Of a stretch of DNA of 53,156 nt, positions 35,622 to 38,306 are shown piece after piece. The translations under genes were made by a program, and so were the position numbers. This DNA is from an uncultured Ligilactobacillus sp. GTDB taxonomy: Bacteria; Bacillota; Bacilli; Lactobacillales; Lactobacillaceae. The notes under the pieces were generated by a model. The model did not search any database. It worked only from the letters and a program-made list of their open reading frames with translations, and was not told the DNA's origin. The stretch lies in NCBI GenBank assembly GCA_944326135.1, contig CALVCU010000024.1, positions 1-53,156 of the forward strand, in the 5' to 3' direction. How positions within the stretch are numbered: position 1 is the first letter of the stretch; every line of letters begins with the position of its first letter.

Positions 35622-37166
35622 TTAATTTTCCTTTTGTAAAGACTCTACATTTAACACATGATCAACCCATTCTTCATAAAATGATGGTTCATGACTTACT
35701 AAAATGATATTTCCTGGGAAATTAATACATGCATCTTGTAAGGCATTTTTGGTTTCATCATCTAAATGATTAGTAGGTTCATCTAAAATCAGAAAATTAG
35801 ACGATACTAATTCAAGCATACATAACTTAACTTTGGTTTGTTCACCACCACTAAGCAATTTAATTGGTTTCATTATATTAGAAGCATTTATTCCAACTCG
35901 TGCTAATTTTTGACGAATCAATTTAGGCTCTAACTTTGGATACTCATTTTGGATAATCTGCAATGGAGTTAACTGTGGATTTTGCCACACTAAATCCTGA
36001 TTAAAATAATTGATTGTCACATTATCAGCAAATTTTGCTGTTCCATTAAAAGTCTTAATTTGTCCTAAAATCGATTTGATCAAAGTTGATTTACCTACCC
36101 CATTAAACCCCTTCAAAACGATTTTTTCGCCATGTGTCATAGAAAAGGTAACTGGAGATAATAATGGCTTATCATAACCTACAACTAAATCTTTAACAGT
36201 AAGAGTATTTGTCGATAATATTTCAATATAAGGAAATTTAAAATGAGCCTGTAAATTATCACTTGGAGGAGTAATACGTTCCATTTTGGCTAATCTTTTT
36301 TCACGTGATTTTGCCATATTAGAGCGGCTTCCCGCTTTATTTTTCCTAATATAAGCCTCATCTTTTTTAATTTGTTGCTGCTGCTTTTCAAAAGCTTTTT
36401 GTTGCACTTCTTTTTTTATTTCTTTTTGTTTGATTGCAGCTTTAAAACTCCCTGTATATTTAGTGATTTTTCCCCATGCTACATCAATAATTGTATTAGT
36501 TACTTTTTCTAAGAAATCGTAATCGTGGGATATAACCATCAAAGCACCACTAAAGTCATTCAAAAAATCAGTTAACCAATCAATATGCTCTGTATCCAGA
36601 TAATTCGTAGGTTCATCAAGCAATAATACATCTGGATTTTCTAATAATAGTTTAGCTAAAATAATTTTTGATCGTTGTCCTCCTGAACATTGACTAACTT
36701 CCCTATCTTTTCCAAGAGCATTTATTCCTAAACCTTGCATTACTTGGTCAATTTTAGTATCCAAATTATAAAAATCAGCAGCTTCAAGTTTTTCTTGAAT
36801 TCTTCCCGCTTTATCTAATAATTTCTCATCTAAATTTTCTGCATATTCCGTATAACATTGGGCTTGTTGCTTCTCCAACAAATATAAGTCCTTAAAAGCA
36901 CTTCTTAAAAATTCAATTATAGTTAAATCATGTGCGTTTTGAGCATATTGATCTAAATAACCAATTTTAATATTATTTTGCCACTTAATCTTCCCTTCAT
37001 CTGGAAAAATCTGTTTAGTAATTAATTTAATCAATGTTGATTTACCGGCACCGTTTTGTCCGATAACCCCCATATGATCCGTTTTATTTAAACTAAATGA
37101 CGCATCTGAATATAACTGCTTATCTGCAAAGCTCATTGAAAGATGCGTTACTTCTAAAATACCCAT
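35622..37166 (-). CDS. ABC-F family ATPase
   Basis: This 514-aa soluble protein has two ABC domains in tandem and no membrane helix. The first has GQNGAGKST and CSGGQRSKIILAKLL with DEPTNYLD; the second has GFNGVGKST and LSGGEQTKVKLCML with DEPTNHLD. The linker (about residues 240-300) is Lys/Gln-rich. Such proteins bind the ribosomal E site; some protect against antibiotics and others are translation factors, and I cannot say which applies. The start ATG 37166 has no good ribosome site, and a terminator ends about 30 nt upstream. Confidence 0.93.
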   Translation of the reverse strand: MGILEVTHLSMSFADKQLYSDASFSLNKTDHMGVIGQNGAGKSTLIKLITKQIFPDEGKIKWQNNIKIGYLDQYAQNAHDLTIIEFLRSAFKDLYLLEKQQAQCYTEYAENLDEKLLDKAGRIQEKLEAADFYNLDTKIDQVMQGLGINALGKDREVSQCSGGQRSKIILAKLLLENPDVLLLDEPTNYLDTEHIDWLTDFLNDFSGALMVISHDYDFLEKVTNTIIDVAWGKITKYTGSFKAAIKQKEIKKEVQQKAFEKQQQQIKKDEAYIRKNKAGSRSNMAKSREKRLAKMERITPPSDNLQAHFKFPYIEILSTNTLTVKDLVVGYDKPLLSPVTFSMTHGEKIVLKGFNGVGKSTLIKSILGQIKTFNGTAKFADNVTINYFNQDLVWQNPQLTPLQIIQNEYPKLEPKLIRQKLARVGINASNIMKPIKLLSGGEQTKVKLCMLELVSSNFLILDEPTNHLDDETKNALQDACINFPGNIILVSHEPSFYEEWVDHVLNVESLQKEN

Positions 37167-37196
37167 TTAATTCATGTCACAAATTCTTTATTATTA

Positions 37197-37233
37197 TAAA
37201 AAACGCCACATAATCGCATCTGCGACCATGTGG
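37197..37233 (-). terminator. Terminator between the 46-aa gene and the ABC-F gene
   Basis: On the minus strand CCACATGGTCGC pairs with GCGATTATGTGG (12 bp including two G-U) around AGAT, followed by CGTTTTTT. The left arm can also pair with the upstream segment 37310-37320. Confidence 0.85.
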
Positions 37234-37342
37234 AGCTTCTTATCGTATTCAATTAATTGAAACTCTTTTTAATAATGTAACTCCTCGAGAAAGCTCACAT
37301 TATTACTGAGCTCCACGTGGCACAATAACCGCGTTAGCTCAA
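37234..37342 (-). promoter_or_regulatory. Candidate attenuator RNA upstream of ABC-F gene
   Basis: This 109-nt segment follows the 46-aa gene and precedes the terminator. TGAGCT occurs twice (37336-37341 right after the stop codon, and 37292-37297), with AGCTCA between (37307-37312), so AGCTCA can pair with only one. TAATAATGT (37297-37305) can pair with ACATTATTA (37270-37278), excluding the second. CCACGTGGAGC (37310-37320) can pair with GCTCCACATGG (37226-37236, one mismatch), which breaks the terminator. No known RNA family was recognised. Confidence 0.55.
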
Positions 37343-37483
37343 TTATTTAGCAGCCTTGTCAGCTTCATCACGTTCCTTTAAGAAGTCTAATACAGCTTCA
37401 TGTTGCTTACGACGTTTCTTAATGTTCTTGTGGTTTACTGGACGACGATCATTAGCTACACCGATATGTGTATTTTGTGACAT
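37343..37483 (-). CDS. Small basic protein, 46 aa, unknown
   Basis: ATG 37483 follows GGGAGG at an ideal 8 nt. The product is very basic in the middle (HKNIKKRRKQ) and acidic/amphipathic at the end (DFLKERDEADKAAK). Codons are those of highly expressed genes: five Arg codons are all CGT, and AAC, AAG, TTC and GAC are common, unlike most neighbours. It has its own promoter. It could be a ribosome- or RNA-associated small protein, or a translated leader for the ABC-F gene; I do not recognise a family. Confidence 0.75.
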   Translation of the reverse strand: MSQNTHIGVANDRRPVNHKNIKKRRKQHEAVLDFLKERDEADKAAK

Positions 37484-37518: not shown

Positions 37519-37547
37519 ATTTTACCGAAAAATTTAAAAAATTTCAA
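37519..37547 (-). promoter_or_regulatory. Promoter of the 46-aa gene
   Basis: TTGAAA (37542-37547) and TAAAAT (37519-37524) are exactly 17 nt apart on the minus strand, 35 nt upstream of the start codon. It lies just after the TerC stop, separating the small gene from terC control. Confidence 0.75.
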
Positions 37548-37556
37548 GTTTACTTT

Positions 37557-38306
37557 CTATTCTTGAATCTTCTTTGCTCTAATTTGATGAACTATTAATG
37601 TAATTACGACAGATGCAAGTACAATCATGCCAAATACTCCAGCAGGAATTTCGATATCAATTGCTGGGATTGATAAAAATAGTTTAACTGCAATAATCGC
37701 AATTAATGCATATGCCATAACTTCTAGTTCAGGTATTTTTTCCATTAATTTCATAATAACTTCTGCGATTCCACGCATACATAAAATCCCAATCATTCCA
37801 CCAATTAACACAATAACTGGGTTAGGAGAAATTGCTAGTGAAGCTAAAATTGAATCCACAGAAAATACGATGTCCATCATTTCAATTGAAATAACTACTG
37901 ACCAGAATAATGGTAGTATTCTCTTTTTAGTTTTTTGTTTCTTAGCTTCTTTTTCAGAATCTGGATGAGCCATTTTCCAAAAATGTTTTATAGACAAGTA
38001 TAATAAGTAACCTGCACCAATAACTTTGATCCACCAGAATTTAATTAAGTATGTTCCAACACCAATTAAAAGGAATCTAAATAAATATGCTCCCCAAAGA
38101 CCATAAAATAATGATTTTTCCTGTTCTTCTTTTGTTGGTAATTTTTGTGTTTGAGCTGCTAGTACAATTGCATTATCAACTGATAATAGACATTCAATCA
38201 ATACCAACGAAAAAATAATCATCCAATCTTGTCCTGATTCAATTACCATTTTCCAATTTTCTAAATCAAAAAATGGTCCGTATAAATTTTGTAAAATATG
38301 TAACAA
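37557..38306 (-). CDS. TerC-family membrane protein
   Basis: This 249-aa protein has about seven to eight helices and the TerC motifs LVLIECLLSVDNAIVLAAQ and IEMMDIVFSVDSILASLA, whose buried acidic residues are shared by the family. Members export manganese (MeeF/MeeY in Bacillus) or relate to tellurite resistance. The start is TTG 38306, because GGGAGA lies 7 nt upstream. The 88-nt region upstream is too short for the Mn-sensing yybP-ykoY riboswitch often found before such genes, and I see none. Confidence 0.9.
   Translation of the reverse strand: MLHILQNLYGPFFDLENWKMVIESGQDWMIIFSLVLIECLLSVDNAIVLAAQTQKLPTKEEQEKSLFYGLWGAYLFRFLLIGVGTYLIKFWWIKVIGAGYLLYLSIKHFWKMAHPDSEKEAKKQKTKKRILPLFWSVVISIEMMDIVFSVDSILASLAISPNPVIVLIGGMIGILCMRGIAEVIMKLMEKIPELEVMAYALIAIIAVKLFLSIPAIDIEIPAGVFGMIVLASVVITLIVHQIRAKKIQE

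Follow-up and report, generated by a model that had tools for sequence, protein, structure and literature searches.

A candidate ribosome-settable terminator behind a conserved small-protein gene of Ligilactobacillus

We propose a model in which the mRNA of S46, a gene for a small basic protein, carries at its 3′ end a genus-specific conditional terminator that a ribosome could set, and in which this terminator has become coupled secondarily to an ABC-F gene in a single clade. The model is drawn from comparison of sequences and predicted folds, and we hold it tentatively, at a shade under an even chance. The window is a stretch of 53,156 nucleotides from an uncultured Ligilactobacillus sp., whose genome amounts to 1.52 Mb in 25 contigs; S46, its promoter-like site, every part of the element and the ABC-F gene lie on the minus strand. 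As long as no ribosome occupies the S46 stop codon, strand 1 would pair with strand 2 to form the hairpin P1, and transcription would end. Were a ribosome to dwell at or near that codon during the synthesis of strand 3, it would cover strand 1 and leave strand 2 to pair with strand 3, and RNA polymerase would read on. In the window's clade such read-through would lead straight into the ABC-F gene, and since that gene has neither a visible promoter nor a visible Shine-Dalgarno sequence, the switch probably sets its transcription there, read-through being the likeliest source of the ABC-F transcript. In the rest of the genus the output of the switch is most likely the 3′ end, the length or the stability of the S46 transcript. 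As several relatives keep the element without an ABC-F gene behind it, control of ABC-F is probably not its main job and is hardly the reason for its genus-wide conservation.

The S46 gene and the element behind its stop codon

S46 (37343 to 37483) encodes 46 amino acids behind a strong Shine-Dalgarno sequence, AAGGGAGG, a feature shared by nearly all S46 loci. The gene is present in all 24 genus genomes of other species and, in a family-wide sample, in 102 of 397 genomes and 15 of 40 genera. When the window gene is compared with 22 relatives of the same length (leaving aside G008 with 45 aa, G019 with 44 aa and the identical G100), pN/pS is 0.04 to 0.40. These values mark S46 as a real protein that evolves under purifying selection, as a preliminary description of this DNA had allowed, and the ratios together with the breadth of occurrence speak against a mere leader peptide. 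It matches no Pfam or NCBIfam model at E-values up to 1. Two kinds of ion-related membrane gene adjoin S46 in different species, TerC upstream in the window (37557 to 38306) and a P-type cation ATPase downstream in locus L064, and ATPase-like reading frames, judged by eye, lie near S46 at other loci. The promoter-like site TTGAAA-17-TAAAAT (37519 to 37547) is exact in 16 of the 25 loci compared, a set in which L074 comes from another genus, and has one-letter variants in 7; L059 and L063 have a different best site upstream of S46. Promoter-like sites in the region as a whole occur in chance number (17, against 17.3 in shuffles), but the near-consensus promoter described earlier is a site that is kept before S46 across loci. 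A short TGCATGA-like motif recurs between the -10 box and the S46 Shine-Dalgarno sequence in many of the loci compared.

The 158-nt stretch that holds the element has a folding energy of -56.4 kcal/mol, where shuffled versions average -31.5 (sd 3.3; z -7.5) and 0 of 200 do as well. The element was recognised in 20 of the 30 S46 loci of the initial set L001-L030 (L001-L006, L008-L014, L016, L017, L020, L023-L026), the elements of L002-L005 being identical, so that the 20 loci represent 17 distinct sequences. P1, the anti-antiterminator hairpin (37305 to 37343), begins at the S46 stop codon. When P1 is folded alone and nucleotides are numbered from the start of the stop codon, the first to be paired is nt 4 to 11 in all 20 loci and nt 6 in the window, which puts the start of P1 0 to 7 nt 3′ of that codon throughout; folding of the whole element adds P1 pairs from nt 3. 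The 3′ side of P1 contains the strand GTGGAGCT (37309 to 37316), which can instead form the 5′ side of an antiterminator with AGCTCCAC (37230 to 37237), itself part of the 5′ arm of the intrinsic terminator. The terminator with its T run occupies 37197 to 37241, its hairpin spanning 37233 to 37206, and was recovered by a terminator scan.

Two further hairpins are enclosed by the antiterminator pairing. P2 (37271 to 37304) shows exchange of bases, all 8 pairs of helix 2 having changed on both sides with 89% of cells paired, and in its upper part it bears the self-complementary CTCGAG (37284 to 37289), found in 16 of 20 loci. The motif reads CTCGCGAG in 3 of the 20 and CGCGCG/GCGCGC in 1, so that a self-complementary hexamer or longer is present in every locus despite the letter changes in 4, three of which are in related species. 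In L023-L025 the CTCGAG position falls outside the apical loop in the best fold, and the argument from the P2 apical loop is suggestive only. P3 (37248 to 37261) is a palindrome hairpin, TTCAATTAATTGAA, preserved through G-U pairing with 100% of helix 4 cells paired. CTCGAG and P3 are constant, yet both are superfluous to a plain ribosome-set attenuator, which counts against the conditional terminator. The self-complementary motif kept in every P2 and the constancy of P3 speak for a binding partner of some kind, perhaps a second molecule of the RNA itself. Up to one mismatch, the only copy of GTTTCAATTAATTGAA in the window's genome is the element's own; the backwards control also gave one. Membership of a described Rfam RNA family was considered and rejected on the lack of a covariance-model match: at gathering scores the window matched only 5S rRNA, and at E-values up to 1 the only match among six loci was a weak one that lay outside the element in L001.

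Alternative pairings and their predicted timing

Strands 1-2 (P1) and 3-4 (the terminator) are mutually exclusive with strands 2-3 (the antiterminator), and the architecture that the preliminary description had proposed, with P1 directly past the S46 stop codon, is to this extent borne out. The sequences it named are present on the minus strand (the S46 frame at 37483-37343, TGAGCT at 37341-37336 and 37297-37292, AGCTCA at 37312-37307), and TAATAATGT/ACATTATTA and CCACGTGGAGC likewise lie where it had placed them. Its competing pairing through the second TGAGCT fared less well, as the nearest relatives read GTGAAACT and GTGCACTT there; this pairing is not conserved and is probably due to chance.

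The duplex between the upstream RNA and the terminator arm is unlikely to arise by composition. In the window its energy was equalled in 0 of 1000 shuffles and its uninterrupted 8-bp helix in 23 of 1000; per locus the energies were attained in 0 to 29 of 1000 shuffles. The longest uninterrupted helix (8 bp in 18 of 20 loci, 7 in L017, 6 in L016) is the less telling measure, being reached in 9 to 42 of 1000 shuffles in 18 loci, 146 in L017 and 625 in L016. Across 16 rows, 125 of the 128 cells of the eight core pairs are paired, with 1 unpaired and 2 gaps. The sole co-change in the antiterminator is in L016, where the terminator arm AGCTCCCTAGG is matched by the upstream strand CCTAGTGGAGCT. For the element as a whole, 16 aligned rows give a covariation score of 0.322 against 0.129 (sd 0.011) when shuffled and 0.039 to 0.074 when slid, with 86.7% of cells pairing and 23 pairs changed on both sides, and much of this signal comes from P2. 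Both alignments, A1 and A5, consist of 16 hand-chosen rows: A1 was made without L003-L005 (identical to L002) and L011, and A5 without G007 (L071; E-value 0.023) and without L060, L082, L004 and L005, whose scores equal those of retained rows. The model to which A5 was fitted came from three sequences of the window's clade, and the pair counts of A5 are biased towards the structure of that clade. On A5 the antiterminator core is nearly invariant, 0 of 12 pairs having changed on both sides, and it shows no covariation of its own because it hardly varies.

We compared folds of the nascent transcript, cut 4 nt past the terminator 5′ arm, with and without a mask over the first 13 nt as a crude stand-in for the ribosome. 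With the mask, the antiterminator came out best in all 20 loci (17 distinct sequences). Without it, P1 won in 11 loci and the antiterminator in 9, and those nine count against a conditional terminator. Where ABC-F comes next, P1 was ahead in 10 of 11 loci, as against 1 of the 9 others; since the 11 loci form two sister clades, this contrast amounts to one evolutionary observation. At full length the terminator formed in all 20 loci when unmasked and was retained in 18 when masked, the antiterminator appearing in 1 (L016) and neither in 1 (L024). The antiterminator core, when forced, lay 0.6 to 12.9 kcal/mol above the best fold (11.4 in the window). The finished RNA favours the terminator, so any switching must be kinetic and decided before the polymerase passes the T run. 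This result took our confidence in the conditional terminator from an even chance to slightly less, and raised marginally that in an RNA with a second function, discussed below. Measured against a ribosome-set transcription attenuator, the S46 element has the mutually exclusive anti-antiterminator, antiterminator and intrinsic terminator, the terminated state being preferred at full length. It also has an upstream frame on which a stalled ribosome would, on grounds of geometry only, occlude the anti-antiterminator. A conserved regulated gene downstream is not found, as the next gene varies among the 20 loci.

Occurrence of the element and the genes that follow it

The element is present in 21 of 26 genus genomes, including a second genome of the window's species (G100). 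The preliminary description had regarded relatives that keep the gene without the pairings as evidence against its proposal; five such genomes exist (G002, G004, G005, G013, G024), but four of them lie outside the element-bearing part of the tree. Four of the five share terminator parts, and the model matches weakly where S46 ends in G024 (E 0.0021), G004 (0.0042) and G005 (0.33), with the terminator part CCACAT in common; as the remaining motifs are missing, these three were scored as lacking the element. When a model from three sequences was run on a draw of 25 genus genomes, it found a single copy in each of 19; G008 was not part of this draw, and G007 was missed by the model. In two of the loci without the element, L007 (G005) and L018 (G013), TTTCCTTGGA stands soon past the S46 stop codon and shares 10 nt of complementarity with TCCAAGGAAA in the loop of the terminator, which would suit a possible pseudoknot or other alternative structure of independent origin.

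One change of state suffices for the element on an rpoB tree that joins 24 genus genomes with three outsiders (G000 and G009 are absent, their rpoB domain not having been found). It is in every row of two clades of 9 and 10 rows, 19 of 19 in total, and G004, G005, G013 and G024 fall outside the branch (support 89) that unites both clades with G002. The tree is a quick one in which no branch sets the outgroup apart, and it leaves the fork between G002 and the two clades open; a loss of the element in G002 is conceivable. Outside the genus, weak model matches occur in 9 genomes (E up to 0.01). The element was rejected there for the five loci inspected (L093-L097, one from each of five of the nine genomes, G165 having a second match), none of which carries both antiterminator strands on one strand.

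The element persists through at least four downstream contexts. Behind it in the 20 loci come ABC-F in 11, a P-type ATPase in 4, a GATase gene in 2 and no convincing same-strand gene in 3. In the window the ABC-F gene (35622 to 37166; 514 aa) starts about 30 nt past the T run, and a distance of about 20 to 30 nt is found in 6 loci, the window and five others, all of the window's clade. There the preliminary description's remark that ABC-F has no clear promoter of its own holds true: inspection found no conserved promoter-like hexamers, and a Shine-Dalgarno sequence is lacking in the 4 loci compared (37166 to 37196 in the window; L059 and L060 are nearly identical). At other loci AGGAG or GAGG precedes the ABC-F genes in the 7 found, 1 not being found. 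In 5 loci ABC-F starts 363 to 406 nt past S46 and has AGGAG, and in 4 of these, by eye, common hexamers TTGCAG/TTGTAG-17-CATAAT/CATACT lie between; L016 is without them. In L008-L011, L013 and L014 ABC-F is on the opposite strand, on the far side of S46. The P-type cation ATPase, assigned by Pfam on L064 only and elsewhere from first residues, is the next same-strand gene in 4 loci, and TGATACGAT sites, seen by eye, precede it. Pfam was run on one of the two GATase genes (L067), and in a GATase locus, G019, ABC-F is third on the same strand, 2.4 kb on. In G008, G020 and G023 there is no convincing same-strand gene within about 1.2 to 1.6 kb; the gene that comes next in G023 and G008 is oriented towards the element, and the 1,416 nt up to the contig end in G020 hold no convincing reading frame. 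A separate ABC-F promoter, which would have weakened the earlier proposal, is thus not visible in the window's clade, whereas the sister genus g30 has a conserved promoter-like site; together with the genomes that keep S46 but lack the element, this makes the outcome of the earlier description's own test a mixed one. The 12 g30 loci, drawn from 14 genomes with S46, carry S46, an apparently simple terminator and ABC-F on the same strand, the ABC-F gene being preceded by TATGATATAAT in 11 and by TGTTATAAT in one. The g30 S46 terminator itself (L019, L099-L109) is largely conserved in sequence between species, a constancy that plain terminators do not seem to show as a rule.

The closest named relatives of the window ABC-F are seven Ligilactobacillus records, 71 to 83% identical. 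In PDB it scores highest against YheS, YbiT, Uup and EttA, lower against PoxtA and lower still against VmlR and Lmo0919; the entry deposited as ExpZ we take to be VmlR. An NCBIfam ribosomal-protection-like model is only just passed (383.5, threshold 380). As the best solved relatives are not VmlR or Lmo0919, an antibiotic trigger is not indicated.

Competing readings and implications

The main rival, which we consider a good deal less likely than the conditional terminator, is that the terminated S46 mRNA, or a processed 3′ part of it, is a structured small RNA with a role in trans. It might pair with itself through the self-complementary P2 motif, and the alternative pairing would then be no attenuator but a conformational change or a by-product. 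This reading would account for an element present in all 19 sampled clade members whatever gene follows, for a constant CTCGAG on a variable stem with some self-complementary hexamer in every locus, for a constant P3, for a single copy in each of the 19 genus genomes with a model match, and for a finished RNA that favours the terminated fold. The three-state arrangement and the placement of P1 at the stop codon would be superfluous to a small RNA, however, and three of the four letter changes in P2 are in related species. Parallels exist in kind. SR1/SR1P of Bacillus subtilis is reported to be a small-protein mRNA that acts as RNA too, although for S46 action in trans is a candidate property. 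Rli51 of Listeria is reportedly an attenuated transcript possibly active in trans, but it sits in a 5′ UTR (PMC11394854) whereas the S46 element follows a coding gene. Effects in trans have also been noted for the terminated greA leader (PMC2965389). The two readings may be joined: an unlikely view is of a genus-specific module that originated on the 3′ end of the S46 mRNA and was fixed at that place, at once a bistable ribosome-settable terminator and a dual-function RNA whose released transcripts may pair with each other via the P2 motif, with the neighbouring ABC-F gene in one clade having shed its promoter and come to depend on read-through.

The proposal of the preliminary description, taken as a vmlR-like attenuator that senses antibiotics and serves ABC-F alone, we regard as improbable. 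Its architecture stands, ABC-F does adjoin the element without a visible promoter in the window's clade, and the topology equals that of vmlR; to these may be added the lead of P1 where ABC-F is next, which counts as one event. According to PMC9226507, the vmlR leader of Bacillus subtilis comprises an anti-antiterminator, a hairpin at the antiterminator apex and an intrinsic terminator before an ABC-F gene, the identical order of structures, and the ribosome at the upstream frame that we propose here has been studied there. That leader, according to the same paper, is a dedicated one with a three-codon uORF inside SL-1, whereas our element lies past the stop codon of a conserved gene that encodes a 46-aa protein. 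Furthermore, at 9 of 20 loci ABC-F does not come next, and the element also occurs where ABC-F is on the other strand; the PDB scores place the protein nearer YheS, YbiT, Uup and EttA, and the ribosomal-protection-like model is barely passed. The msrD leader (PMC10314930) is similar in preceding an ABC-F gene whose regulation was studied under a ribosome-targeting drug, and differs in that the frame upstream of our element encodes a protein under purifying selection that occurs in 15 of 40 sampled genera. A switch in which P2 and P3 in the antiterminator junction form a binding site for a ligand or protein, possibly the small and basic S46 itself, is the least probable reading, for though the constancy of CTCGAG and P3 within the junction and the help that the antiterminated state needs at full length would suit it, S46 is found in 15 of 40 genera while model matches outside the genus are weak and the five inspected lack both antiterminator strands, no Rfam family matches, and the downstream genes suggest no ligand. 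A literature search, most subscription papers being beyond its scope, did not find the S46 element in print and returned nothing apt on kissing or palindromic loops in attenuators.

Returning to the conditional terminator, attenuators are usually recognised as leaders, and here an attenuator-like RNA trails a real protein gene. The element is present in 19 of 19 sampled clade members while the gene downstream of it changes, and ABC-F was apparently captured in one branch, which cautions that one genome is insufficient for naming the target of an attenuator. If the model is true, related species would let one trace how a 3′ UTR gave rise to a new regulatory link.
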